Positions 26,815 through 61,821 of a stretch of DNA of 64,000 nucleotides are shown here, piece by piece. Numbering within the stretch: the first letter of the stretch is position 1; each line of letters begins with the position of its first letter. Source of the DNA: Bdellovibrio sp. ZAP7. Its GTDB lineage: Bacteria > Bdellovibrionota > Bdellovibrionia > Bdellovibrionales > Bdellovibrionaceae. The position numbers were made by a program, and so were the translations under genes. Under the pieces are notes generated by a model, which saw nothing but the letters and a program-made list of their open reading frames with translations, made no database searches and was not told where the DNA came from. The stretch lies in assembly GCF_006874645.1 (NCBI RefSeq), contig NZ_CP030082.1, positions 1,116,001 through 1,180,000 on the forward strand, written 5' to 3'.

Positions 26815-26970
26815 ATGCGGTTGCTGGAGAGTTTTAAAAAATCGGGGAATTTCGTCACAGGTCTTTTTGCAATCCAAAAAGATATGACGAGAGAGGAGTG
26901 GGAGAAAATGGAGAGCAAAAAAGTAATTAATAAACACAAAGATCAAATCTACTGGGATGGGAAATATTAA
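26815..26970 (+). CDS. Small basic protein, start of transfer operon
   Basis: A 51-codon frame starting at the ATG at 26815 encodes a small charged protein rich in lysine, including FKKSGNF and EEWEKMESKK. Its stop overlaps the next start (TAATG). The frame stays open upstream to 26698 and has no canonical start next to the strong AAGGAGGT at 26743, although a GTG lies at 26794. The true start is thus uncertain. No family is recognised. Confidence 0.45.
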   Translation: MRLLESFKKSGNFVTGLFAIQKDMTREEWEKMESKKVINKHKDQIYWDGKY

Positions 26971-27236
26971 TGTCGCGGACTTTCAAGGACAAACGAGAAG
27001 TCAAAGTGAAGAGGAAGAAGTTCAAGCAAATGCTTTGGACGAAGAAGTTCGAGATCAACAAACTCGAGGGCGATGATGAAGAAAATGAAGAGTTGGATTT
27101 TTGTCCTGAGTGCAACTTCCCAACAGATTTTGAAGCAGGACTTCTTACTTGTTCCAAGTGCGGCTGGGGGAATTTTTATCCTGCCAACGGATTGGAAGAA
27201 GATTTTGAACCATTAGAATATCCAATGGCGGCATAA
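26970..27236 (+). CDS. Small zinc-ribbon protein
   Basis: The 88-residue product has a basic N-terminus (KDKREVKVKRKKFK) and a zinc-ribbon signature, CPEC and CSKC separated by 15 residues. Its C-terminus is acidic. Such small ribbons bind zinc and often bind nucleic acid or protein partners. It is overlapped by the preceding small gene and sits at the head of the transfer operon. No specific role is known. Confidence 0.65.
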   Translation: MSRTFKDKREVKVKRKKFKQMLWTKKFEINKLEGDDEENEELDFCPECNFPTDFEAGLLTCSKCGWGNFYPANGLEEDFEPLEYPMAA

Positions 27237-27249
27237 AGAGGAGGTATCA

Positions 27250-27648
27250 GTGACTTTTAATCAGAACGTTATTCCTTTAAAGAAGCTCGATAAATTTGCC
27301 CTCTGTCGGGGAACTATGGGGCCAGATGATGAACTCATCGAGTACGAGCAAGTAGGCGTTGCTTATCTAAAGCCGGGCTCCAAAACATTCCGAATTAAGC
27401 TTTGGATGTTCCCGAATGAACAATATTTCCTTTCTCCTTCTAACGATAAATCCACGGCTTACAAAATCTTGTCTTTGGAAGAATTTGAATCGCAATTGAA
27501 AGAGAAGAAGGCTTCTTGGCAATGCATTGGGAAAGGGGATTTCGTCGGATTGCATATCAGGATGAAGTTCAATCTTTTGTCTGAAGAGGTTTTTCTGTGT
27601 CTTTTCCCTGATGAGAAGCAAGCAGAGGAGTTTTATGCTGCAAGCTAG
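27250..27648 (+). CDS. Uncharacterised protein in transfer operon
   Basis: The 132-residue product starts at a GTG behind a strong GAGGAGG site. It has no signal peptide or membrane segment and looks like a soluble mixed alpha/beta protein. I see no motif with a known function. Its end overlaps the pilin gene start, so it is part of the transfer operon. Confidence 0.65.
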   Translation: MTFNQNVIPLKKLDKFALCRGTMGPDDELIEYEQVGVAYLKPGSKTFRIKLWMFPNEQYFLSPSNDKSTAYKILSLEEFESQLKEKKASWQCIGKGDFVGLHIRMKFNLLSEEVFLCLFPDEKQAEEFYAAS

Positions 27649-27949
27649 GAGCTTCAAGAAAATCGACTTGGCGAAAGTAGCTTTAGTTATCTTACTTCTC
27701 ATGTTGAGCATCTTGATGATTCCTATTGTTGCGCAAGCAAGTGTTGAATCCTCGCTCATGGGAGTTCAGACAAAACTTACGAGGGTAATCCTGCCTGTTC
27801 TTTCCGTAATTGGAATTGCTCTTGCCGGCCTTTCCTTTATTACCGGCCACGAGAACGCTAAGAAGCATATTATCTATGCGATCATAGGAACTGCCATTGG
27901 ATTTGGGGCCCAGTCTATTGCAGACATGATTTCCCAAACGGTCAGGTAG
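27635..27949 (+). CDS. VirB2/TrbC-like conjugative pilin
   Basis: I start at the ATG at 27635 (GAGGAG four bases upstream); the frame opens earlier at 27611. The 104-residue product has an N-terminal hydrophobic leader ending near AQASVES and two more membrane helices. This is the pattern of VirB2/TrbC major pilins. After processing it should be the pilus subunit. It is followed by a VirB3-like and a VirB4-like gene, the standard order. Confidence 0.8.
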   Translation: MLQARSFKKIDLAKVALVILLLMLSILMIPIVAQASVESSLMGVQTKLTRVILPVLSVIGIALAGLSFITGHENAKKHIIYAIIGTAIGFGAQSIADMISQTVR

Positions 27950-27951
27950 CT

Positions 27952-28278
27952 ATGAGTAATAACGATGAATTACTTACTTCAAATGTGCCGCGAACCCTCG
28001 AAACAAAAAGCAAAATTATGGGATTTGAATTGTCTGATGTGCTGATTCTGCTTCTGAATCTTTCGATTCAAAATCTGATTTTCGGGAGCACTCCGGTCAA
28101 GATTCCAATGGTCTTTGGAACGAGTGCTGTTATTGGGCTTATGCTTTTCTTTTTTAAGAAAGGAAAGCCTGAAAACCATATTCAACACTATTTTGAGCAT
28201 TTGCTTGCTCCAACTGTACGCTCGGCGAATGCGACCGATGAAACCTATCGTATCAAGAAGGGGGAATTCAATGAGTAG
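27952..28278 (+). CDS. VirB3/TraL-like membrane protein
   Basis: The 108-residue product has two closely spaced membrane helices in its middle and a conserved-looking C-terminal cytoplasmic part. Its size and position between pilin and VirB4 genes fit VirB3, which anchors VirB4 at the inner membrane. The sequence identity to known VirB3 is not obvious by eye, so the call leans on position. Confidence 0.65.
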   Translation: MSNNDELLTSNVPRTLETKSKIMGFELSDVLILLLNLSIQNLIFGSTPVKIPMVFGTSAVIGLMLFFFKKGKPENHIQHYFEHLLAPTVRSANATDETYRIKKGEFNE

Positions 28279-30736
28279 CAGCGCTTTATGTGAGTCGCTT
28301 CCATATTGGGAGTTTGAATCTGGTTCAAACCCTCATCTTTTACTTTGGGATGGATCGCTATCAAGTGGAATCGAAATCGTTCCAAAAGATATTGGCTGTC
28401 TTGATGCTCCTGCCATTAATCAAATCACTTTGAATCTAAGGACGTTGGTTAATTCTTTGCCGGAGAAGATGACGGCCCAAGTTTGTGTAAAGGTAGAGAC
28501 TGAATTCGGTGATGTTCTGGAGAGACACTCGAATCTAAGAATTACGGATAATGAGTTCTTAAAGGCTTTGGATGATGATCGCATTAGTGAGTTAAGTGGC
28601 CAAGTTCAGCGAGAGGAAGTTTATCGCCCGAGGGTGTATTTTTTCCTGAAAACCGAGTCGCCGGAAAAGCCATCTACACTCTCACTGAAGAAAACAAAGA
28701 AGTTTGCTGTGACGTACGGAAATGACATTTCGTCAGCGATTCAAAGCTTAATGCAGGCTTTGCAGAATGCTCAATCAATTTTGGGTTCAGCGGGCTTCCA
28801 GAGCAAAGTTCTATTTCGTGAACAAATGATTTCACTTGCATACAAACACTTAAATCCAAAAAGGGCGCAAGAAATTGATGCTCCGACAATTGCGGCAAGA
28901 CCCGAGTCGCTGGAGAACGAGTCCCCGAGAAATCAATTGGTCTTCGGCGATTTGATACTTAATCAAGAGGACTTTGTTTTAGATCGAACTGTTACAAGAG
29001 TTTTGTCGCTCAAAACTCTCCCGGAATCAACATTTGCGGGGATGATGAGCCTCTTTGCAAATGTAGCATTCAAATATGAAATGATCTTTTCTTTCTATAT
29101 TCCAGATCAGGCATCTGAGATGAAAGGCTTGGAGCAGAAGCGGCGTATGGCTCACTCGCTTACTACGAATAACCATGGTCGCGTGAGTGATTTGGAAGGG
29201 GAGTCGCGTCTTGCGCAGACTACTGATTTGATTAGGGAGATTATTGATACTGGTCAAAGAGTGTTTGTCGGTGAACTGCTATTAATACTTCGTGAGGAAA
29301 ACACCGCCCAGGGGAACAAAAGAATTAATCTTCGCAGCAAAGAAATCCTGTCTTGCTTCAGGAAGCTCAGTGGAGCAGAGGGAATTCAAGAAACTGTTGG
29401 AGCCTGGAAGATATTCTCGAGTGAGCTTATGGGAAGCCCAATGGAGCTTGTTCGTGGCAAAAAGATGAAGTCAAACAACTTGGCTGACTTTCTTCCCCTG
29501 TATGGCAGTGATGTTGGGGATGACCGACCATTGGTGCTGACTCATACGCGGTCGGGTTCTCTTTATGCGCTAGATTCGTATGATTCTAAACTAAATAACT
29601 ACAACTCGTTAGTGACCGGTTCTAGCGGCGCGGGAAAGAGTTTTACCAACAATTTTTTCATGCTTCAGCAAATAGCTCGAGGAGTAAAGCTTTTCGTTAT
29701 TGACGTTGGTGGAAGTTATAAAAAGCTAACGAATATTATGAAGGGTCAATACTTTGAAATCAATTTGACTGCTGAGTACGCTCTTAATCCCTTTCAGCTT
29801 CAGAACCCTGGAGACAAAGTTTCTTCGGAACGTATTAAGGCTCTAGTTAATATCATAGAGCAAATGATCGTAGATGAAGGGGAGAAGCTTCTGCGTTTTG
29901 ATCGGGTCTTGATTGAGGAGGCATTGGCGGCTGTATTCGAGGATATTCGTACTAAGACTCCTCAGAGATCGCCACAGATTTCTGACTTCGCCAGACACTG
30001 TGAGAAGTCCAAGGAAGAGACTCTTAAGCGTGTTGGAAAGCTCTTGTATCCTTGGATTGGAAACAGTGCCTACGGCAAGCTCATTGATTGTCAGGGGCAG
30101 ATCAATGCTGATAGTCCTGTCGTTGCATTCGATTTGAAGGGGCTTGCGCAGTATCCTGATCTTCAGTCGGTCGTAACTTTGATTCTCACTGGATTCATTT
30201 TGGATCAGGTGGAATTGAATAAGGACGTACCGAAGCGGGTTCTGCTTGATGAGGCTTGGTCATTCCTTCAGAGCAAAGCTGCGAGTACGTTCATGGAGTA
30301 TGCAGCGAGAGCTCTCAGGAAGACTGGCTCAGGAATCACGTTTATTACTCAGGGAGTTGAAGAAATCGTAGAAAGTGCGATTGGTTCGGCGATCTTGAAT
30401 AACACGGCGACGAAGATGATTCTTCAGCAACAAGGTGACACAAAGATATTGAAAGAAGCCCTGCGCTTAAACTCTCAAGAGGTTCGATTAATTGAAAGTT
30501 TAGATCGTAGGAAAGGCGCCTTTAGCGATGTTTTTGTGATGAATGGAGACTCAAGGCAAGTGCTGCGAATCCAACCATCACCAGTGGAATACTGGATTTC
30601 AACGAGTGATGCTTCTGACAACTGCTACCTGCAAGGAATTATAGATAGTGGCGTGTCGCTTGAAGAAGCAATTCTGAAAGCTGCGAAAGATGCACCTTTC
30701 GGAGTTGATTCACCGGCGACGAAGGTGGCTGCGTGA
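28271..30736 (+). CDS. virB4: VirB4/TraC-like secretion ATPase
   Basis: The start is the ATG at 28271 behind a GGGGGA site; the longer open frame begins inside the virB3-like gene. The 821-residue product has Walker A GSSGAGKS (near 450) and Walker B RVLLDEAW (near 657), with the typical C-terminal FITQGVEEI motif. It powers pilus assembly and substrate transfer at the inner membrane. Walker motifs are intact, so it should be active. It overlaps the preceding gene by eight bases and the next by four. Confidence 0.93.
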   Translation: MSSSALCESLPYWEFESGSNPHLLLWDGSLSSGIEIVPKDIGCLDAPAINQITLNLRTLVNSLPEKMTAQVCVKVETEFGDVLERHSNLRITDNEFLKALDDDRISELSGQVQREEVYRPRVYFFLKTESPEKPSTLSLKKTKKFAVTYGNDISSAIQSLMQALQNAQSILGSAGFQSKVLFREQMISLAYKHLNPKRAQEIDAPTIAARPESLENESPRNQLVFGDLILNQEDFVLDRTVTRVLSLKTLPESTFAGMMSLFANVAFKYEMIFSFYIPDQASEMKGLEQKRRMAHSLTTNNHGRVSDLEGESRLAQTTDLIREIIDTGQRVFVGELLLILREENTAQGNKRINLRSKEILSCFRKLSGAEGIQETVGAWKIFSSELMGSPMELVRGKKMKSNNLADFLPLYGSDVGDDRPLVLTHTRSGSLYALDSYDSKLNNYNSLVTGSSGAGKSFTNNFFMLQQIARGVKLFVIDVGGSYKKLTNIMKGQYFEINLTAEYALNPFQLQNPGDKVSSERIKALVNIIEQMIVDEGEKLLRFDRVLIEEALAAVFEDIRTKTPQRSPQISDFARHCEKSKEETLKRVGKLLYPWIGNSAYGKLIDCQGQINADSPVVAFDLKGLAQYPDLQSVVTLILTGFILDQVELNKDVPKRVLLDEAWSFLQSKAASTFMEYAARALRKTGSGITFITQGVEEIVESAIGSAILNNTATKMILQQQGDTKILKEALRLNSQEVRLIESLDRRKGAFSDVFVMNGDSRQVLRIQPSPVEYWISTSDASDNCYLQGIIDSGVSLEEAILKAAKDAPFGVDSPATKVAA

Positions 30737-31437
30737 GGAAGAGGGTTTTTGCGTTGCTAGTGTCGTCTATGATGCTGCTGGCACCAATGTCTGCGCGGGC
30801 CGATCTTTTTGGTGGGGATGTTGTCGTCCTAACACAAATCTTGGTTCAAACCATTCAAACGGTTATTCAGTTGAAGTCCATCCTTTCAAATGGGCAGGAT
30901 ACTTTGAATTTAATGAGGGATTTGAACTCTGGAGTACGATCCGGCCTTGATGTCATTCGAATTATCAATCCGAAATTCAATCCTGGAGTCTATGGTGACT
31001 TGAACAACTCAGATTCGGTGTTGCGTGCGATACAAGAGGTCTATGGGGAAGTCCCTCGCGGAATGGACCAGGATCTCATGACTTCGCAGGATCAGAGTGT
31101 TGCCGAGACTATCTCCATGAATAGAAGGCTTTATGACTATGCCGATGAAGTTGATCGAGAGCGTGATCGGATACTATATCATTCACAAGTTGTTAGCCCT
31201 CAAGGCGCAGGAAAACTTCAGAATCAGGCTCTGGGAGTGTTGATTGGCGTGACGACGCAACTCCTGCGCACTCAAAGCCAGATGTTAAAGCTTCTTGCTC
31301 AAAACATGGCTATGGAAAATCGCAGAGAGAAGATTCAGACGAAAGGGTTTCAAGAAAACTATCGAGACCTGTCTGATGGCCTCAAGAAACTTCCGATGGA
31401 AACTACTCTGCCACGTCTTCAAGGTGGTGGTCAGTGA
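30733..31437 (+). CDS. VirB5/TrbJ-like secreted protein
   Basis: The 234-residue product starts at a GTG that overlaps the virB4 stop. It has a signal peptide ending SARA, then a mostly helical mature part with coiled-coil character. VirB5/TrbJ proteins are minor pilus components involved in adhesion. The call rests on the signal peptide, the helical pattern and the place between virB4 and virB6. Confidence 0.7.
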   Translation: MRKRVFALLVSSMMLLAPMSARADLFGGDVVVLTQILVQTIQTVIQLKSILSNGQDTLNLMRDLNSGVRSGLDVIRIINPKFNPGVYGDLNNSDSVLRAIQEVYGEVPRGMDQDLMTSQDQSVAETISMNRRLYDYADEVDRERDRILYHSQVVSPQGAGKLQNQALGVLIGVTTQLLRTQSQMLKLLAQNMAMENRREKIQTKGFQENYRDLSDGLKKLPMETTLPRLQGGGQ

Positions 31438-32273
31438 TGCCCAATATGGATGTACTTGGTTCTTTGATTCGGGATTTGCATCACATGCTTGCGAATCTCT
31501 TCTATATAGCACTGCCAGTTGCGATATTGCTGTCTGTTTGCATCAGCTTCGTAAAAGGTGGAAGCCCTGATTATATGGATATAGTTCGAAGAGCATTGAT
31601 AGCGACACTTCTACTTGTTTCATTTCCAGAGGTTTCAGGCTGGATTCTGGATATTTGTGATGGGCTGGCGGGAAAGATTGATTCAATGGCTGGATTAGAT
31701 GCTTTCATGAAGATGGCGGAGGAGAAATCGAGAAGCTATGCGGGTGCACAGAGTGTACTCCTACTGAAGTTTAACGATCTGTTTATCGCGGTTTTGAGTT
31801 TTGCTAGTTACGTGATCCTTTACGTCGCCAGATATTTGACGATTGCTCTGTATTACTTTTTTTGGGTGATGCTTTCGGTTCTCTCACCGATTCTGATCCT
31901 TTGTTACTTATTCCCTGCAACTGCGGGAATCACGAAGGGACTGTATCGTGGATTAATCGAAGTCGCCTCTTGGAAAATTATATGGGCCGTGCAGTCGGCT
32001 ATGCTTGCGGCCTTGTCGGTCGGAAATATCTATAAGACTGAAGGATCGTATATCACTCTGACGGTTCTTAATTTTGTCATTGCAATTGGTCTGCTCTGTA
32101 CGCCGATGCTCGTAAAATCAATTGTTGGTGAGGGCTTGCAAAGTGCAGCTTCGACAATGGGCACTGCTGCTGCGGCCGCCATGATCGCAATTCCAACTCG
32201 GGCTATCAAGGTTTCGACTACATCGAGGGAGGTTCTCTCAAACAGCTTTAAATACTTTTCATCTAAGAAATAA
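31434..32273 (+). CDS. VirB6/TrbL-like polytopic membrane protein
   Basis: The 279-residue product has about six membrane helices separated by short loops, the pattern of VirB6/TrbL, which forms part of the inner-membrane channel. A GTG and an ATG are adjacent at the start (31434 and 31437). It follows the VirB5-like gene with a four-base overlap. There is no extended C-terminal domain like that found in large VirB6 proteins. Confidence 0.75.
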   Translation: MMPNMDVLGSLIRDLHHMLANLFYIALPVAILLSVCISFVKGGSPDYMDIVRRALIATLLLVSFPEVSGWILDICDGLAGKIDSMAGLDAFMKMAEEKSRSYAGAQSVLLLKFNDLFIAVLSFASYVILYVARYLTIALYYFFWVMLSVLSPILILCYLFPATAGITKGLYRGLIEVASWKIIWAVQSAMLAALSVGNIYKTEGSYITLTVLNFVIAIGLLCTPMLVKSIVGEGLQSAASTMGTAAAAAMIAIPTRAIKVSTTSREVLSNSFKYFSSKK

Positions 32274-32290
32274 AAAAGGAGGTAGAAATT

Positions 32291-32878
32291 ATGGAAACTA
32301 AATCACTGATTATTAAAAACTATCCGAAGATTGTGCAAGAGTTTGCACGGGAGAACTTCGATCTTAAAGTTCTCTCGGCGGCGCTGTTGGCAATTCTCTT
32401 CGTCATGTCAGGACTGATTGTATATTTCGTCAAGAGAGGCCCCGAGGTAATTGCACTTGATGCGACTGGGGCTATTGCTAAGCTCGAGTTGAAGATTACA
32501 GATGCGCAGATTGCTTCCGCAATTGAAGAGTATCTTTCATATCGCTACAAATGGACTCCAGACACTGTTGCTTTTCAGATGAAGAAAGCAGAGGTCTTTA
32601 TTGATCCGAGCCTAATTCCTTCATTTCAAAAGGCAATGGTGGATGTTCAAAAGTTTGTTAAAGAGAAGAAGGTGAATCAACGAGTCTATCCGAGCGATGT
32701 CAAAGTCGACTTGAAGCTGATGAAAGTCACCGTATTGGCCGACCGAATTACCGAATTTGACAGTTTGAGTGCGGCAACAAAACTGAAGGTAGTTTTTGAT
32801 TTTTCGTCGGGAGAACGAACAAGTCTGAATCCTTGGGGGATTTATATTCGTAAGGAAACTGAAGGAGAAATCCGTTGA
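32291..32878 (+). CDS. TraE/VirB8-like membrane protein
   Basis: The 195-residue product has one N-terminal membrane helix (residues about 30-48) and a periplasmic domain, the layout of TraE and VirB8. It has AGGAGG upstream. The protein would link inner- and outer-membrane parts of the secretion channel. The next two genes resemble TraK and VirB10 and follow in the same order as F-type traE-traK-traB. Confidence 0.75.
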   Translation: METKSLIIKNYPKIVQEFARENFDLKVLSAALLAILFVMSGLIVYFVKRGPEVIALDATGAIAKLELKITDAQIASAIEEYLSYRYKWTPDTVAFQMKKAEVFIDPSLIPSFQKAMVDVQKFVKEKKVNQRVYPSDVKVDLKLMKVTVLADRITEFDSLSAATKLKVVFDFSSGERTSLNPWGIYIRKETEGEIR

Positions 32879-33576
32879 GGGTTGCTATCCTAATTCATGT
32901 GGCGGCTATTTTCCTGACGTGTCATTCGTTCGCAAACATCAAAACTTTGACACCAAAGACTGATGAAATTGTTGATATCAAAACTGCTCTTGGCATCGCA
33001 ACTATCGTGCAAATGCCTGAAACTGTTCAGTCTGCTATTTCGGGAGACCTATCGGCGTATCGCATCGAATATTTAGATCAAGCTGTAACGATTAAGCCGT
33101 TGCGTGGAAGCGCAAAGACGAATTTGTACCTATTTACGAAATCTCGTAGGTACATACTTCGTCTTGCCGTGGTTCCTCAAAACTTGGCTAACTACGTTGT
33201 ATATATCAAGAACAGAGACTCTGGGATGATCCTACGTTGGATAAGCAATGGGAAGACTGCCTCAACTCCTGACCTGTCATTGAAGCTTTTGAGGACCTCC
33301 ACTACATCAGACGGCTTCGTGCTTTTGGATGCTGAGGTAACCGCGAAGACTTCACAAACTCTAATGCCGGGAAACTTTTGGATTTGGCAAGGAAAGGACT
33401 CGAAGCCAATGCAAAGTCTTTTTCTTTCGCGCAAGGAGTTGCGAAAAGACCAACGAGCTATGATTGGCATTTCAATTAGAAAGGCCGATCTCAAGAATCA
33501 ACCTGTCATATTGGAACTTCAAAGTCCTTCTAAGAGCCTCAAAATTGAGATTCCAAAAGAGGCCCTATGGAATTAA
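32875..33576 (+). CDS. TraK/VirB9-like periplasmic protein
   Basis: The 233-residue product starts at a TTG overlapping the previous stop (GAAGGAG site). It has a signal peptide ending SFA and a beta-rich mature domain. Its position between the VirB8-like and VirB10-like genes supports TraK/VirB9, which forms the outer-membrane core complex with VirB10 and a small lipoprotein. Sequence motifs alone would not be decisive. Confidence 0.65.
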   Translation: MRVAILIHVAAIFLTCHSFANIKTLTPKTDEIVDIKTALGIATIVQMPETVQSAISGDLSAYRIEYLDQAVTIKPLRGSAKTNLYLFTKSRRYILRLAVVPQNLANYVVYIKNRDSGMILRWISNGKTASTPDLSLKLLRTSTTSDGFVLLDAEVTAKTSQTLMPGNFWIWQGKDSKPMQSLFLSRKELRKDQRAMIGISIRKADLKNQPVILELQSPSKSLKIEIPKEALWN

Positions 33577-34472
33577 TGGCTAAGCTAAAGGGGATATTCG
33601 TCCGGAAGGGTAGCTTTAGTTCAAAGATTGAATTGAAACTGTCTTCATTCAAGTGGTTGGGGATTGTGGGTTTGGCGGTATTTGTAGTAGTCGTTTTGTT
33701 AATGCCTAACGAGCTCCCGGTAGAGTTCTCTGAGAAGATCGAGCCATCAATCGAACCGGGAATTGAAAGCTCCCGAAATACCCAGGCCAAATTTGATTCG
33801 AAACAACTCTGGTCAGCCCCAAAGAGAGAAAGCTTTGGAGCAGGAGGCGACAGCAGACAAATTGACTATAATACGGCAATGATCATTGGATCGGGAGGAA
33901 ATGCGAAATCGAGACTTCATCCTGGAGTGAGATTGCCTCTGCGGATTTTAGATAAGGTCGTCGTGTCGCAAGAATCAGTTCCAGTTCTTGCAGAGCTTCT
34001 TATGGATAGTGAGACGGAATCTGGCTTAAAGCTTCAAGCAGGGACGAAGTTCTATGGAGAGGCCACTTTTATGAAGGGAAGTGATCGGGCCTTAATCCAA
34101 TTTAAACAAATCGCTCTCTTAAATGGACAGTTGAAGCCCATCAATGCCAGAGCACTCGGAAAAGATGGCCAGGCCGGACTACAAGGGAGAGTCTATTCTG
34201 ATGGAGCTAAAAATACAGCGGGGCAAGTAATTACATCTTTCGTGGGAGGGCTTGCGGCTGGGAGTGTACAGACAGATATTTTTGGTAGATCTCAGGGCGG
34301 CATCGGAAATGGGGTTCTGACTGCTGTAGCTGAAACTGCCAGAGGTAAGGCTCAATCTTATGGAGAGAACCTAAAAGCAGAGCGTGAGTGGATTGAGCTT
34401 CAGCCGAACTCTGAATGTGATGCTCAATTGTCCGAGGCAATGGATCTACAGTCAGGATCGTCAATTGAATAA
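33567..34472 (+). CDS. VirB10/TraB-like channel protein
   Basis: The 301-residue product has one membrane helix near the N-terminus (residues about 29-47) and a conserved C-terminal beta-barrel region with motifs such as GTKFYGEATF and VGGLAAGSV. VirB10 spans the periplasm and reaches the outer membrane. It overlaps the previous gene by ten bases and the coupling protein by eight. It is short for a VirB10, with only a brief linker after the helix. Confidence 0.85.
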   Translation: MELMAKLKGIFVRKGSFSSKIELKLSSFKWLGIVGLAVFVVVVLLMPNELPVEFSEKIEPSIEPGIESSRNTQAKFDSKQLWSAPKRESFGAGGDSRQIDYNTAMIIGSGGNAKSRLHPGVRLPLRILDKVVVSQESVPVLAELLMDSETESGLKLQAGTKFYGEATFMKGSDRALIQFKQIALLNGQLKPINARALGKDGQAGLQGRVYSDGAKNTAGQVITSFVGGLAAGSVQTDIFGRSQGGIGNGVLTAVAETARGKAQSYGENLKAEREWIELQPNSECDAQLSEAMDLQSGSSIE

Positions 34473-36051
34473 TAACGATAGCAAAGAGCTATTCGGGATC
34501 GTTATGTTGATTGTTCTGTTTGTTGTACTGGCGTTTCATAATTTGGCGCCACAAATACTGAGTGCCATTGTTAGACACCGATATATGACTGCCTCAGTCA
34601 TATCGTTTGTGGTCATGTTATTTTTCGCAAAGTTTAGAACTGAGTTTGCAGAAAGGTCGAAGGCGAAGGAAATCAAAACTCGCCTTAATCGAGTAACTGC
34701 AAAGGATAGTATTTTCCTTGGGACATCGGTAGATCAGAATCCAGTCTACATTCCACTGACGGCAAGACGAATGCACACGCAGATTGTCGGAACGACAAAT
34801 GCGGGAAAAACAGAGTCGGTGATTTTGCCCTGGGCAATTGATGACATTAAGAATGGCCGAGGACTTATTTTGATTGATGGGAAATCTGATAAGGGCTTGT
34901 TGGACAAATTATATGCCTATGCTGTGAAGTACAAGCGATCCAAAGACTTCAGGATGTTATCGCTAGTAAACCCGGAAACAAGCTCGAGTATTAATCCGCT
35001 GAAAGGTGGATCGGCTGATGAAGTGACTGAGCGGATCTTTGCTGCCTTCTCCTTTGAAGATGAATATTACAAAAATCTTCAGTACGAGGTCTTGAAGCAA
35101 ACTCTATACTTGTTTGAGCGGGCTGGTGTCATTCCGACTTTCAATAAATTGATTCAGGCAATTACGAATCCATCAGTTCTTATGTCTTTGGCGAATTCGA
35201 CGGACGACCCAGGTTTAACGGCCTGGGCGGATCGCTTTGTTGCTCTATCAAAAGAAGATCGGGAAAAAAGAACAAGTGGCCTAGTTAATCAGTTGGGGCA
35301 TTTCACTTCGGGAGATACGGCGATTCTCTTTAACTCTGACATGCCACAGATCGACATAGAGCATGTAATGCGTGAAGGGCTTATCGTCTATTTCCAATTG
35401 CCCGTTTTGAAGACTCCGACGCTTGGAAAGGCAACAGCCAAGTTAATACTTCAATGTATCCAAAGTTCGGTATCAAGTCGGCATTTGGATGAAGATAAGA
35501 GCTTTCCATTTTTCGGAGTCTATCTGGATGACTTCACCGAGTACCTGATTCCGAGTTTTGTCAGTCTTCTGAACAAATCTAGAAGTGCCAATGTCGGAAT
35601 CACTTTTGCGCATCAGGCTCAGGGGGACCTCGGCGCACTTGGTGAGGAGGTGAAGAACACGATCCAGACGAATTCAAACCTGAAAGTATTCATGCGAACC
35701 AATGAGCCCGAAACTGCGGAATATTTCTCAAGACTCATCGGGACCAAAGAGGGAACGAAGATGACTGAGAGAGCTAAGAAAGGATTGTTTGGAAATGAGA
35801 GGACTGGGGATGGGTCAGTACGTGATGTCGAAGAGTTCATTTATCACCCGAACACGTTCAAAAAAGAACTTGGAACGGGGGACGGAGTTATTGTCGTTCC
35901 ATTTAATGATGGAGCATTTACAGAACGTCTGAAGTTTCAAATGCAACCCGATTTAAAAGCACAAAAGCTTCCTCGGATTGCGAAGGCGAAAGTGGAGTTC
36001 ATTGAACTTAAAGGTTCCCAAAATAGATCTTCAATATTGGAGGCAAGCTGA
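34465..36051 (+). CDS. TraD/VirD4-type coupling protein
   Basis: The start is a TTG at 34465 with AGGA upstream, overlapping the VirB10 end; an ATG at 34504 is also possible. Two membrane helices precede a large ATPase domain with Walker A GTTNAGKT (near residue 110) and Walker B GVYLDDFTEY (near 352). Coupling proteins bring DNA-protein substrates to the secretion channel. The C-terminus is short and lacks a long relaxosome-binding tail. It is the strongest evidence for DNA transfer in this element, because no relaxase was found. Confidence 0.88.
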   Translation: MNNNDSKELFGIVMLIVLFVVLAFHNLAPQILSAIVRHRYMTASVISFVVMLFFAKFRTEFAERSKAKEIKTRLNRVTAKDSIFLGTSVDQNPVYIPLTARRMHTQIVGTTNAGKTESVILPWAIDDIKNGRGLILIDGKSDKGLLDKLYAYAVKYKRSKDFRMLSLVNPETSSSINPLKGGSADEVTERIFAAFSFEDEYYKNLQYEVLKQTLYLFERAGVIPTFNKLIQAITNPSVLMSLANSTDDPGLTAWADRFVALSKEDREKRTSGLVNQLGHFTSGDTAILFNSDMPQIDIEHVMREGLIVYFQLPVLKTPTLGKATAKLILQCIQSSVSSRHLDEDKSFPFFGVYLDDFTEYLIPSFVSLLNKSRSANVGITFAHQAQGDLGALGEEVKNTIQTNSNLKVFMRTNEPETAEYFSRLIGTKEGTKMTERAKKGLFGNERTGDGSVRDVEEFIYHPNTFKKELGTGDGVIVVPFNDGAFTERLKFQMQPDLKAQKLPRIAKAKVEFIELKGSQNRSSILEAS

Positions 36052-36062
36052 AAGGAGGCCAA

Positions 36063-36362
36063 TTGAGATTACTAATTTTGTTTTTTGTATTAGCAACGAT
36101 GGGCTGCGTGAGTAAACCGACCTGTGCCAATAGCAAGGACGGATTTGGTGCGGTCTATGACTCAGCCAGAGGTTGTTCGATTCGAGTTAGGCAGGTGGTA
36201 ATAGGTTCAGAGTTGGAGTTGCCAAAGTCTTTAGATTTTAAATCTTCTGACATGAAGTGGAGCTATCAGTGGGTGGAGACTAATTTTCACAATGGTGTTT
36301 TGGAGCTGGGACATTTTGCTTTGGTCCCGATTGGTTCTGGAGTTTTGAATAGTGAGAAGTAG
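36063..36362 (+). CDS. Small lipoprotein, possible VirB7 counterpart
   Basis: The 99-residue product starts at a TTG and has a lipobox ending in TMGC. The mature part carries two further cysteines. VirB7-type lipoproteins stabilise VirB9 at the outer membrane, and this gene sits between the coupling protein gene and the next transfer gene, overlapping the latter. The match to VirB7 is by type and position only. Confidence 0.55.
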   Translation: MRLLILFFVLATMGCVSKPTCANSKDGFGAVYDSARGCSIRVRQVVIGSELELPKSLDFKSSDMKWSYQWVETNFHNGVLELGHFALVPIGSGVLNSEK

Positions 36363-37122
36363 TTCGATTGAAGAAGCTTTACTTCTTTCGAAGAAGTTTG
36401 GCTTCATTTCAAAAGGAGTCTTCTGGGATTTCTGCTGCTCAGAAGGAAAGTCGGTCCGCTATCAGAATTGGAGTGAGCTTAAGAACTCACCTTTATTTAC
36501 AGCTTATTCGAACGGATCGGGAGTTCCTGATTTCCTTTCATTGAGTTCAAAGGGGAAGCAAAGAATGGGGCAGGATTCTATCGGTCAGATTGTTCCAACC
36601 TATTTGCTACATGATGAGATTGTTATGCGGTTTTATCTTCACCTCAAGAATGAACAGATGTTGAGGCAAAGCTGGTCTGAGGCTGAACTAAAATCAGATC
36701 GAGTTATTGCTGTTAAAGGATTGGGTGATGGAATTATCTCCAAACTGCCAGACTTACTTTTTGATGTAACGGGGGGTAGCAACTTCATTCGTTGCGCTCT
36801 CGAGATCGAGCGGACAAGAAAATCGCAAGCACGGTATAAAACCATGAGGCGAGCCTATCAAAGAGCACGAAGCGTAGACTTGGTTCTTTTCGGAGTGGCA
36901 GACGAGAAAATCGAAACAGTGATTTCGGAAGAATTTAAAACCGGTGGATTGAACTTGGCGAACCAAGAGATCGGATTTTTTGATTTGGATAATTTCTCTC
37001 AGCGGCAATTGGATTGTGAACTTCGGATTGCAGGGAGGAAAACCACTCTGAAGAAGTTCTTCAATTCTCTGGCAGCATCAGTGAAGAGAACGCCGGAAAA
37101 TCACCGGAATGTTTCCGGTTGA
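36352..37122 (+). CDS. PD-(D/E)XK/Replic_Relax-like protein
   Basis: The 256-residue product (GTG start) has a winged-helix-like N-terminal half and a C-terminal half with a nuclease-type core. That core has Pro133-Asp134 (KLPDLL), then Glu151-Ile-Glu153 (ALEIERTRKS) with Lys157 and a helix with RYKTMRRAYQRA. The spacing resembles the PD-(D/E)XK fold of replication-relaxation (Replic_Relax) proteins, which are encoded by conjugative elements beside a coupling protein. No catalytic tyrosine or HUH motif is seen. A role in DNA processing at the transfer origin is inferred. Confidence 0.6.
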   Translation: MRSSSIEEALLLSKKFGFISKGVFWDFCCSEGKSVRYQNWSELKNSPLFTAYSNGSGVPDFLSLSSKGKQRMGQDSIGQIVPTYLLHDEIVMRFYLHLKNEQMLRQSWSEAELKSDRVIAVKGLGDGIISKLPDLLFDVTGGSNFIRCALEIERTRKSQARYKTMRRAYQRARSVDLVLFGVADEKIETVISEEFKTGGLNLANQEIGFFDLDNFSQRQLDCELRIAGRKTTLKKFFNSLAASVKRTPENHRNVSG

Positions 37123-37187
37123 TTTTCAAGAAAACTCGGGCTGCTGAAATGCGGGTAAGTATTCGGAGTTTGAAGAGAAACAGGGGA

Positions 37188-37282
37188 CTTCCTCCCACCT
37201 CCATCCCCCTCCTGCGGTTCGTGACCCCTCCCTCCCTACGAGAGAAAGGGGTCACGAAACGGGGGATGGAGGTGGGAGGAAG
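37188..37282. repeat. 95-bp nested inverted repeat
   Basis: The outer arms (37188-37209 and 37261-37282) are perfect 22-bp complements. Inside them, 12-bp arms TTCGTGACCCCT and AGGGGTCACGAA (37218-37229, 37247-37258) are also perfect. The folded form would be a long, strongly GC-rich cruciform or RNA hairpin. It lies just after the transfer operon and before the small DNA-binding genes, where an origin of transfer or a strong terminator would be expected. Confidence 0.8.
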
Positions 37283-37346
37283 AAGATATGAAAGATAGAT
37301 AGAAAATATTTAGATAGATACAAAACACAAACACTTGAAATTATAA

Positions 37347-37442
37347 GAGGCAGGTAGCTGAAGTGCAGTTGAGATTAAAAAATGCAGTTTTAGATTTGGT
37401 CATTGATGGGCTTCGACTTTAGACAGTTAGGCTACCTACCTC
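37347..37442. repeat. Spaced inverted repeat upstream of DNA-binding genes
   Basis: GAGGCAGGTAGC (37347-37358) pairs with GCTACCTACCTC (37431-37442) with one mismatch and 72 bases between. The middle holds a direct repeat TGCAGTT and an AT-rich stretch. Together with the hairpin at 37188 this fills the 395-base gene-free gap between 37122 and 37518, and may bind the protein encoded at 37518 or the recombinase. Confidence 0.5.
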
Positions 37443-37517
37443 ATATAATTTCAGATTCTGCGAATGATGGATGCTACAGGCGGCGCATCCCGATTTTGAA
37501 TACAGGGAGGAAAATAA

Positions 37518-37904
37518 ATGGAAGAGAAAGAAGAATTAGTTACGAAGATCACTATTACCAAGCAAGCCGAAGAGGCAGTCAGTCAAATTGTGGCCCGTGT
37601 TAATGAGGGGTTTGATGCGGGAAGAGTAACAAGACAAGATGTGGCAAGTTGGGTTTTGACACGATTCAATGAGACATGTGTTGAAGGTGATGTGCAGCAG
37701 ATCAGGTCTGAGTTTTTCAATGAAATTGCGTTGTTGGAGAATATTCTGAAGAAAGCAAAGCAAAGTGGTTCAGTCCCAGAAGAATTGAAGTTGGCATTAA
37801 TGGGGCAGGCCAATATAAGTCTTGGTGGTGCAAAGAAGACAAAGAGAGGCTTGACTAGTAAGTTGACCAATGGTCAACATGAAGAAAGCGGAGATGCAAC
37901 TTGA
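37518..37904 (+). CDS. Possible relaxosome or DNA-binding accessory protein
   Basis: The 128-residue product begins with a strand-like segment KITITKQAEEAV followed by helices, a pattern seen in ribbon-helix-helix proteins. The C-terminus is basic (KKTKRGLTSKL). Proteins of this type bind near transfer origins in conjugative elements (MobC or TraM functions), but no family is certain. GGAGG precedes the ATG. The stop overlaps the next gene. Confidence 0.5.
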   Translation: MEEKEELVTKITITKQAEEAVSQIVARVNEGFDAGRVTRQDVASWVLTRFNETCVEGDVQQIRSEFFNEIALLENILKKAKQSGSVPEELKLALMGQANISLGGAKKTKRGLTSKLTNGQHEESGDAT

Positions 37905-38140
37905 GTCCAGACAGATTTCGAGAAATTCGTTTAGGGTTGAACCTAACACAGGCTGATACAGCCCTCATTCTTGGAGTGGCCGACAAAACAGTTATTAGTA
38001 GGTACGAGGCCGGTGGTCGCCGTCCAAATAATTTGATGTCGGCTGTGATGGAAGTTTTGGCGAGTTTACCAAGAAAAGAATCTGAGCGACTCGTTGAGCT
38101 TTTGAAGAAGCACGTCGCCCTGCAAAGAAGCGATAATTGA
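37901..38140 (+). CDS. XRE-family HTH regulator
   Basis: The 79-residue product starts at a TTG overlapping the upstream stop. It has a clear XRE helix-turn-helix (LNLTQADTALILGVADKTVI, then RYEAGGRRP) and a helical C-terminus. Such small regulators usually control integration or transfer in mobile elements. It lies between the DNA-binding protein and the integrase-proximal gene, all translationally linked. Confidence 0.8.
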   Translation: MSPDRFREIRLGLNLTQADTALILGVADKTVISRYEAGGRRPNNLMSAVMEVLASLPRKESERLVELLKKHVALQRSDN

Positions 38141-38337
38141 AGAGAGGTCGCAAAGAAATCCCCAGTTACAAATTACCTGTGCCATTGAGGATCATTTTGA
38201 AACCCCAGCCAGAGCCTTCGATTGAATTTGAGAAGCGGGCTAAGGAAGTCAAAGACATGATTGCTAAAGTAATTTTAATTGCAAATAAAAGGGGACGACC
38301 TTCGCAAAAGGATGATGAATATGAAGAAGCAGCTTAA
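38137..38337 (+). CDS. Small AT-hook-like protein next to integrase
   Basis: The 66-residue product starts at a TTG overlapping the previous stop and overlaps the integrase start. It contains two short basic motifs, KRGRKEIP and NKRGRPSQ, of the AT-hook type that binds the minor groove. Its place directly before a serine recombinase makes it a candidate recombination directionality factor. That function is inferred only from position and basic character. Confidence 0.55.
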   Translation: MKRGRKEIPSYKLPVPLRIILKPQPEPSIEFEKRAKEVKDMIAKVILIANKRGRPSQKDDEYEEAA

Positions 38338-40084
38338 CATTGGTGCCTACATTCGAGTTTCAACGGATCGTCAGGTGCAGGTATTTGAAGGATCATTGGA
38401 TACTCAGAAGTACAGAATGCTTGAGTTTGTAAATGCTCGAAATAGAGATCAAAAGTCCTGGGGAGAAATCGTCGAGTTCTATGTCGATGAAGGTCTTTCT
38501 GCCGGAACAGACCGTCGTCCACAATATCAAAAAATGATGGCGGATGTTCGTTCAGGTAAAATCAATTTGATTCTCGTGGCCGATATCTCTCGCTTATCAA
38601 GAAGTGTCCATGACTTTAGCGTGCTGTTGAGAGAGCTAGAAAACCACAATGCGAGTTACCTTTCAATGAAGGAACAATTTGATACGACGACTCCAGCAGG
38701 ACGATTGATGATCAATATGGTTGTCAATATGGCTCAGTTTGAGCGAGAGCAAACGTCCGAGAGAGTTGCGATTAATTGTAACTCGCGTGCCATGAGAGGG
38801 TTCGTCAATGGAGCAAGACCAGTTCTTGGCTTTTCACGTCATCCAGATAAGTCAGGTGTACTTGTTATCAATGACATGGACGCAAAAAAGATCAGAAAGA
38901 TTTTCGAGATCTTCCTCGAAGAAGGTACCATTGGTAAAACGCTTCCAATAATTGAATCATTAAAAATTCTGCCTCGTTCATCTAAGAATGTTGAGCGTGT
39001 TTCGATTTCTCCACGTTGGAACTACTCAGCGGTTCGCGATATTCTCACTAATCCTGCTTATGTGGGACTGAAAGAAGTAAATAAGAAGAATAAAGGAGCG
39101 GACCCCGAGACACTAAAGCCGTGGCAGCACTACCAAGTCGTTAAAGCTTCATGGGATGGGATCATCGAGAAGGCAGTATTTGATCAAGTTCAAGAGGTTC
39201 TGCAGCAAAACGCTCTTTTGGAGCGCCGAAAAATGGAAGAGGCTGAAAGACGTGTATTCCTGCTGTCAGGAATTCTTCGCTGCGGAGAGTGTGGTAGGAC
39301 TTTAAGTGGACAATCTGCGCATGGTGAAAAGGCTGTACACCGATATTACTCCCATTCTTACAAGCGCGGATCTGAATCAAGTTGTAGCCTAAAGAGAATT
39401 CGCGCTGATGAGATCGAAGATGTGGTCATATCTTATTTAACGAATGTAGTCTCTCGCGCGGGCTATATGAGTGGGATCGAAGAGAATTTGAAATCGGCAG
39501 TTAATATGACTCCGGCAAGCTATTCCGAACAAATTGGAAATGTTAAAAATGCGCTTTCTGAAGTCGAAATAGAAATTAAGGCGACATTCAAATTGCAAAT
39601 GAAGACGTCTCTGGGGGATGAGGCAGCTTCGTTGGCAGTTCAACATCTTGAAGAGCTGGGGCAGAAAAAGAAACAGCTTGGGACTTTGTTGGCTAAACTT
39701 AAAGATCAAGAAGGTACGGTCGTTGACACTGACAGTGTTATGAATGCCATTAAGAATAGAGTTGCAGACTTTAAGAAGGGATTTCCCAAAGCAAATGCAT
39801 TCTTGAAAAGACGTCTATTGAGGAAGGTTTTGAAGGAATTAATTCTAACTGATCGCGGACTTGAAACATCATTCAACGTCGATATTGGAAATCCAAATCA
39901 GACGGAAGATGACTCTTTGTCTTATGAATATGGCAAGTTGTTGAGCTTTAAGCGCAAAGTTATGAATAACGACAGTTCGCCATCAGTGCCTCTTAGGGCC
40001 ACCGGGCCTGATTTTACTCCGTCGTTTGAATTATTGCTTAATGATGGAAATGGATGGGGTAGCAGGACTCGAACCTGCGAATGA
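38321..40084 (+). CDS. Large serine recombinase (integrase)
   Basis: I use the ATG at 38321; ATGs at 38312 and 38315 are in frame. The 587-residue product has the resolvase catalytic domain with the nucleophile Ser14 in YIRVSTDRQ. A recombinase domain follows, then a zinc ribbon (CGECGRTL near residue 320, with a later cysteine) and a long coiled coil. This is the full length of large serine integrases, which join attP and attB without host factors. The last 10-12 codons (GWGSRTRTCE) are the complement of the tRNA-Gln 3' end, so the stop codon lies within the attachment site. Confidence 0.92.
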   Translation: MKKQLNIGAYIRVSTDRQVQVFEGSLDTQKYRMLEFVNARNRDQKSWGEIVEFYVDEGLSAGTDRRPQYQKMMADVRSGKINLILVADISRLSRSVHDFSVLLRELENHNASYLSMKEQFDTTTPAGRLMINMVVNMAQFEREQTSERVAINCNSRAMRGFVNGARPVLGFSRHPDKSGVLVINDMDAKKIRKIFEIFLEEGTIGKTLPIIESLKILPRSSKNVERVSISPRWNYSAVRDILTNPAYVGLKEVNKKNKGADPETLKPWQHYQVVKASWDGIIEKAVFDQVQEVLQQNALLERRKMEEAERRVFLLSGILRCGECGRTLSGQSAHGEKAVHRYYSHSYKRGSESSCSLKRIRADEIEDVVISYLTNVVSRAGYMSGIEENLKSAVNMTPASYSEQIGNVKNALSEVEIEIKATFKLQMKTSLGDEAASLAVQHLEELGQKKKQLGTLLAKLKDQEGTVVDTDSVMNAIKNRVADFKKGFPKANAFLKRRLLRKVLKELILTDRGLETSFNVDIGNPNQTEDDSLSYEYGKLLSFKRKVMNNDSSPSVPLRATGPDFTPSFELLLNDGNGWGSRTRTCE

Positions 40085-40126
40085 CAGAATCAAAATCTGT
40101 TGTCTTACCAACTTGACGATACCCCA
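40051..40126 (-). tRNA. tRNA-Gln (anticodon UUG)
   Basis: The minus strand folds into a cloverleaf. It has a 7-bp acceptor stem TGGGGTA/TACCCCA, an anticodon stem ACAGA/TCTGT with loop TTTTGAT and anticodon TTG, and a T-arm with GGTTCGAGTCC. A CCA end is encoded (40053-40051), with T at the discriminator position. The gene overlaps the end of the recombinase gene, and its 3' part is the likely attachment core. Confidence 0.93.
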
Positions 40127-61773: not shown

Positions 61774-61821
61774 CCAAAAACCGGCAGGCGCCTTTTCGAA
61801 AAGGCGCCTGCCGGTTTTTGG
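61774..61821. repeat. 48-bp perfect palindrome
   Basis: The palindrome has no loop: its two 24-bp halves are exact complements around TTCGAA, with CCCAAAAACCGG at one end and its complement at the other. It lies between divergent genes starting at 61725 and 61957. It may be a bidirectional terminator from an insertion, an operator, or a hairpin. It is the longest perfect palindrome I noticed here. Confidence 0.85.

Follow-up and report, generated by a model that had tools for sequence, protein, structure and literature searches.

A nested inverted repeat next to a MOBC-type relaxase gene is very probably the origin of transfer of an integrative conjugative element in Bdellovibrio

Results and discussion

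In the genome of Bdellovibrio sp. ZAP7, a 95-bp nested inverted repeat very probably serves an integrative conjugative element (ICE) as its origin of transfer (oriT). The MOBC-type relaxase encoded upstream would recognize this repeat and nick it in the inner stem. The repeat lies in a stretch of 64,000 nucleotides, the whole of which is referred to here as the window. It shows two traits expected of a MOBC-type oriT: it adjoins the relaxase and coupling-protein genes of a conjugative element and is an inverted repeat conserved together with the relaxase family. The original prediction had named three candidate functions, namely an origin of transfer, a site recognized by a PD-(D/E)XK-like protein and an unusually strong terminator. 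Our sequence comparisons support the first two: this hairpin design accompanies the MOBC gene family in Bdellovibrionota, in Enterococcus and in CloDF13-type plasmids. Because the PD-(D/E)XK-like protein is the predicted MOBC-family relaxase, the two readings become one. The terminator is disfavored. The features of the region are collected in Table 1.

Table 1. Features of the hairpin region and of the surrounding element (window coordinates)
Feature	Position	Strand	Remarks
Nested inverted repeat, proposed oriT core	37188-37282	.	Arm search, folding, conservation in related elements
Outer left arm, 22 bp, partner 37261-37282	37188-37209	.	Sequence varies among elements, self-complementarity kept
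Unpaired 5' side of the asymmetric internal loop, 8 nt (3' side 2 nt)	37210-37217	.	
Inner left arm TTCGTGACCCCT	37218-37229	.	Contains the conserved GACC core
Apical loop CCCTCCC-TACGAG-AGAA, 17 nt	37230-37246	.	C-rich half and ACGA conserved
Inner right arm AGGGGTCACGAA	37247-37258	.	Nick perhaps at G-G of GGGGTC (analogy: presumed CloDF13 nick)
Outer right arm	37261-37282	.	
Smaller inverted repeat, 3' end of the relaxase gene	37092-37126	.	Terminator-like part 37103-37119, or second oriT motif
Second inverted repeat, 30-nt arms 37336-37365/37424-37453, 83%	37336-37453	.	
Conjugative type IV secretion genes (TraC/VirB4, VirB6-, VirB8/TraE-, VirB9-, VirB10-like)	26970-34472	+	Profile matches
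VirD4/TraD-like coupling protein	34384-36051	+	
Small conserved protein encoded between the coupling-protein and relaxase genes	36063-36362	+	
Predicted MOBC-family relaxase, 256 aa	36352-37122	+	N-terminal helical domain and PD-(D/E)XK-like domain
128-aa protein 3' of the hairpin, possible relaxosome accessory	37518-37904	+	Function suggested by position
HTH regulator	37901-38140	+	
Large serine recombinase of the element	38279-40084	+	
Right end of inserted DNA in tRNA-Gln (tRNA 40051-40126, minus strand)	40048-40126	.	Three relatives without the insertion

Structure and location of the hairpin

The inverted-repeat search returned outer arms that are 100% complementary and separated by 51 nt, and they enclose perfect 12-bp inner arms around the apical loop. 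The nested perfect arms of the original prediction are thereby confirmed, far beyond chance in both shuffled and simulated sequence. The hairpin folds at -79.7 kcal/mol compared with a shuffled mean of -50.8 (z -6.8), and none of 200 shuffles equaled it. Only two perfect inverted repeats with arms longer than 13 nt and a span of at most 150 nt occur in the window, and the longest arm across 20 first-order simulated windows is 13 nt. The other one, at 61774-61821, has 24-nt arms and lies outside the element. The hairpin is present as a single copy in its own genome. Its internal loop is asymmetric, and the 5' side is the longer one in most relatives as well.

As predicted, the hairpin occupies a gene-free gap beside the transfer operon. 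This gap of 395 bp (37123-37517) is flanked by the 256-aa and 128-aa open reading frames, and the only listed frame across the hairpin is a mechanical 64-aa one on the minus strand. Homologues of the 128-aa protein follow the hairpin in 12 other loci. Two further inverted repeats lie close by. The smaller one at the end of the relaxase gene is highly variable between groups, and two loci that have no relaxase gene nearby (L074 and L075) also carry a similar repeat. The second, between the hairpin and the 128-aa gene, carries GAGGCAGGT in its arms; it is kept in the four closest elements and is not apparent in more distant ones.

Identification of the relaxase

The protein encoded immediately upstream of the hairpin is predicted to be a MOBC-family relaxase. 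This assignment comes from its relatives, since its own match to the NCBI MobC model NF041423 is weak (E 0.041, with a bit score far under the cut-off) and it has no meaningful Pfam hit. NF041423 is matched by 21 of 23 relatives (best E 9.5e-14), and PF13814 (Replic_Relax) by five of the 23 (best E 6.5e-12). Residues P133, D134, E151 and E153, which form a PD...ExE pattern and agree with catalytic residues of the PD-(D/E)XK type, are invariant in the family, as are R161 and Y162, and K157 is near-invariant (at least 90%). A review relates MOBC relaxases to PD-(D/E)XK restriction endonucleases (PMC12857230). In a shallow AlphaFold model of the protein (pLDDT 76.9), the N-terminus is helical and the core is of alpha-beta type. 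The structural matches of this model include restriction and nicking endonucleases with middling scores; the best is VIA (Z 8.3), and restriction-type nucleases stand at Z 6-7 among unrelated folds. A Foldseek search with the model gave no match at E 0.001 or better.

A direct similarity search of the plasmid collection with the gap and the relaxase returned nothing, and the link to plasmids was obtained only via the relaxase family profile. Built from the relatives described above, this profile recovers the relaxase of pAM373 with 43 bits and all 12 further plasmid MOBC relaxases tested with 28.9-52 bits. CloDF13 MobC is matched in two fragments with weak scores, and the gene looks broken in the record used. 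CloDF13 itself (L157, NC_002119) is typed as non-mobilizable by MOB-suite in that collection, probably because the mob genes are fragmented in the record. Within Bdellovibrionota, 202 of 368 genomes contain profile matches at E 1e-8, which suggests that putative conjugative elements form an extensive family in this phylum of predatory bacteria and their relatives.

Association of the hairpin with the relaxase in Bdellovibrionota

Three close relatives of the element, with relaxases 92, 55 and 52% identical to that of the window, have the same hairpin. Of all the DNA in the gap, the hairpin is the most strongly conserved in these relatives, and its changes are paired. We searched 368 Bdellovibrionota genomes with a pattern for the hairpin head, which had been widened after a stricter version missed the window hairpin. 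The pattern occurs at 30 places in 26 genomes, and the reversed control pattern at none. At each of the 30 places the pattern marks the head of a long repeat that is self-complementary, and the arms differ from place to place. A relaxase gene lies beside the hairpin at 25 of them within the sequence covered. The usual order at these loci is coupling protein, small protein, relaxase and hairpin. In viral contigs, 16 matches to the first, loose pattern were chance occurrences without a hairpin, and the full hairpin pattern gave none.

Since those loci had been picked by the hairpin, the association was also examined in reverse, at loci picked by the relaxase alone. The high-ranking set comprised 40 loci lacking the strict head pattern (L117-L156). 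Four of these (L143, L148, L154 and L155) were left out because their contigs end too soon, and the high-ranking G163:C118 also stands outside the set. The hairpin is present in 35 of the 36 assessable loci, at most about 220 bp from the relaxase stop codon, and L151 is the miss. Among 20 lower-ranked loci, a selection from the list of relaxase-profile matches, 17 have the hairpin, five of them with an altered core, and L201, L215 and L216 are the misses. In total, the hairpin lies at most a few hundred bp downstream of the relaxase stop codon in 52 of 56 assessable loci and was not found in the stretch examined at the other four. It is thus conserved in related elements, although the arm sequences differ, contrary to the lack of conservation that the original prediction had listed as part of its refutation.

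Conservation of the hairpin as DNA

Identical copies were counted once, which left 59 distinct hairpins of 65 in one comparison and 53 in the covariation set. Watson-Crick pairing is kept in 98.7% of the 689 cells of these 53 inner stems, with 148 double changes and a single one-sided change, and ten of the 13 positions change on both sides. Covariation reaches 0.564 compared with 0.141 after shuffling, and pairing falls to 47-48% when the partner is shifted by one column. The apical half reads CCC-N-CC-(C/T)-N-ACGA in most hairpins. The sequence-specific part of the site would be the GACC/GGTC core of the inner stem together with the ACGA loop, as judged from this pattern of conservation. The outer arms, by contrast, drift freely while their pairing is kept, which suggests that the folded shape is recognized.

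Comparison with plasmid origins of transfer

We compared the hairpin with the corresponding regions of pAM373, of CloDF13 and of 12 further plasmids, the latter picked from 80 listed rows to span identities. A nested repeat whose inner stem contains GACCA/TGGTC is present in all eight Enterococcus MOBC plasmids examined. The inner repeat of pAM373, which is perfect over 25 bp and contains CCTGACCA, has CAACGT at the loop and is surrounded by 18-bp outer arms, and the whole sits between the coupling-protein and relaxase genes. The seven further Enterococcus plasmids, whose relaxases are 42-74% identical to that of pAM373, all keep the nested repeat. An annotated small open reading frame that overlaps the repeat in pAM373 (L158, 14283-14522) may be spurious. 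Inverted repeats are described in the oriTs of pAD1 and pAM373 (PMC5587640; PMC6414798).

The Enterococcus sites (pAM373, and pAD1 according to the literature) resemble those of Bdellovibrio in several respects. The MOBC relaxase gene is close, the nested repeat has outer arms of 17-22 bp, the inner stem contains TGACCA/TGGTCA, and CAACGT lies at or next to the apical loop. They differ in that the site is upstream of the relaxase gene, the inner stem is longer and AT-rich, and the arms are unrelated in sequence. The oriT of an Enterococcus MOBC plasmid was reportedly first mapped by Francia and Clewell in 2002.

A nested repeat with a GACCA/TGGTC inner core is also found in all four assessable CloDF13-type plasmids, with a MOBC relaxase and an oriT-mobB-mobC arrangement. 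In CloDF13, the inner repeat GACCACCC/GGGTGGTC lies within 14-bp outer arms, and at its inner right arm stands GGGTGGTCGGG, which we take to be the mapped nick region. All three assessable relatives (L166-L168) keep this arrangement; L169 and L170 are outside the counts, as they were not assessable owing to where their records start relative to the expected site. Unlike in Bdellovibrio, the inner arms are at least 58 nt apart, no ACGA loop was seen in these plasmids, and the site precedes the mob genes, at a distance of 2.3 kb from mobC. The hairpin thus stays associated with the relaxase gene although its position relative to that gene varies among groups, an argument against a function that depends on a single transcript.

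Proposed function of the hairpin

In the proposed mechanism, the hairpin would be extruded in supercoiled DNA or would form in the displaced strand, and the MOBC-type relaxase would recognize its folded shape. The relaxase would then nick one strand within the inner stem, either at G(N)G-GTC or at its counterpart on the other strand, and the coupling protein and the type IV secretion system would pass the nicked strand to the recipient. Nicking, its strand, the exact nick and the recognition of shape are what we infer from the comparisons above. To our knowledge, no covalent intermediate has been seen for MOBC relaxases.

A wider generalization, which we put forward tentatively and consider slightly less probable than its opposite, is that MOBC relaxases are structure-reading nickases in at least three bacterial groups. 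They would read a GACC(A/C)/(T/G)GGTC inner stem by its sequence, together with a CAACG-type loop in two of the groups, and the outer arms by their shape, so that these arms could evolve freely as palindromes. If this is true, the whole MOBC relaxase family would share one searchable oriT signature, and it would explain how islands that lack a relaxase hitch rides in predatory bacteria. The signature would pinpoint the oriT beside more than 50 MOBC genes in one phylum, and it recurs in Enterococcus and CloDF13-type plasmids. It would allow oriTs to be found computationally, and it makes the nick, the strand and the recognition of shape directly testable. The literature that we searched, outside whose scope key older papers fell, held no description of a MOBC core shared by the three groups.

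Alternative explanations

The main alternative is that the hairpin is a binding site for the relaxase or an accessory protein within the oriT and that the nick lies elsewhere, for example in the asymmetric bulge or in the smaller repeat at 37092-37126. A review describes a MOBC system in which TraX binds at a distance of 70-120 bp from the nick (PMC12857230), and L074 and L075 retain the small upstream repeat. However, that repeat varies widely among groups, and the most conserved DNA of the gap is the inner stem. In the oriT-mobB-mobC regions of related enterobacterial elements, moreover, two nic sites are described within an inverted repeat (PMC2262945). We regard a binding site with the nick elsewhere as unlikely.

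The second alternative is a function in RNA or in the leading region, as a regulatory small RNA, as the 5' leader of the operon that follows, or as a promoter or priming site on single-stranded DNA. The strong fold and the covariation would suit such a role, and SGI1 reportedly depends on a self-encoded small RNA for its mobilization (PMC9299015). The manner of change in the inner stem does not fit, with G-T pairs in only three of the 689 cells beside the one-sided change mentioned above. Because G-U intermediates are generally frequent in RNA helices, the pattern is more simply read as that of a DNA palindrome. In addition, an Rfam scan gave no match except the tRNA, the hairpin of L014 lies within the relaxase reading frame, and the position relative to the genes shifts between groups. 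A structured RNA or leading-region site is accordingly quite improbable.

It is very improbable that the hairpin terminates or attenuates transcription where the transfer operon ends. Such a role would agree with a GC-rich stem after the last gene of the operon and with minus-strand tails that are T-rich in several relatives, where the hairpin may act as a terminator on that strand. As the original prediction had pointed out, no T-run follows the window hairpin on either strand (plus tail AAGATATGAA, minus tail TCCCCTGTTT), and the hairpin is absent from the 28 terminator-like hits of the terminator scan of the window. On the plus strand, none of 28 distinct hairpins has five or more T within 8 nt after the stem, in a survey whose stem count includes spurious outermost pairs. 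A separate terminator-like repeat is available at 37103-37119, the core and loop are conserved in sequence with hardly any G-T pairs, and both plasmid groups place the site ahead of the relaxase or mob genes. Finally, a recombination (att) site of the element can be practically dismissed: a recombinase gene is nearby, but the same hairpin accompanies serine as well as tyrosine recombinases, hairpins of this design are found on plasmids, and the insertion ends at 40048 in tRNA-Gln, as given by the empty-site comparison.

Loci without a nearby relaxase gene

The hairpin read here as an oriT is also present at three loci where no relaxase gene was found in about 6 kb on each side, namely L070, which has a tyrosine integrase, and L074 and L075, which have a serine recombinase of the ICE family. 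L074 and L075 are like the group of the window itself in the inner stem, the loop and the small upstream repeat, and the genome that contains L074 (G020) has no relaxase-profile match anywhere at E 1e-8. L064 and L071 also have the hairpin without a relaxase in the sequence covered, and both are near contig ends. A Pfam scan of the proteins of L070, L071, L074, L075, L083 and L086 detected no relaxase, and many of these proteins are without a match.

L070, L074 and L075 look like candidate mobilizable islands that would mimic the oriT of a helper. Integrative mobilizable elements are described as sharing oriTs with their helpers (PMC6414798). The oriT mimicry of the SXT/R391 family offers an analogy, with a recombinase and an oriT-like site and no nearby relaxase gene; the SXT helper relaxase, however, is of the MOBH class according to a review (PMC12857230), unlike the MOBC type here. 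Regarding cargo, eight of ten proteins tested with PADLOC have no defence match, and an AAA protein of L074 (427-2595) matches the IetA models, which suggests defence cargo.

Borders and cargo of the element

The borders of the element were derived from empty sites and not from direct repeats, since a search for direct repeats as att sites found none. In three relatives (G015, G020 and G010), tRNA-Gln is uninterrupted at the site of the element, and homology to the empty sites restarts at 40048 of the window (40051 for G010). On the left, the flank of the empty site corresponds to G000:C1:1057519, which puts the inserted interval at about 98.5 kb (G000:C1:1057519-1156048; L199 and L200). This insert may be composite, and an apparent further recombinase gene was seen by eye just inside its left junction. 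The element probably carries metal resistance, since metal-efflux-like genes (RND pumps and P-type ATPases, recognized by eye from the translations) lie within the inserted interval at 1-25000 of the window. In G011 (L197), a related recombinase and short metal-gene matches are found at the same tRNA-Gln, and this genome has its own hairpin-bearing element elsewhere.
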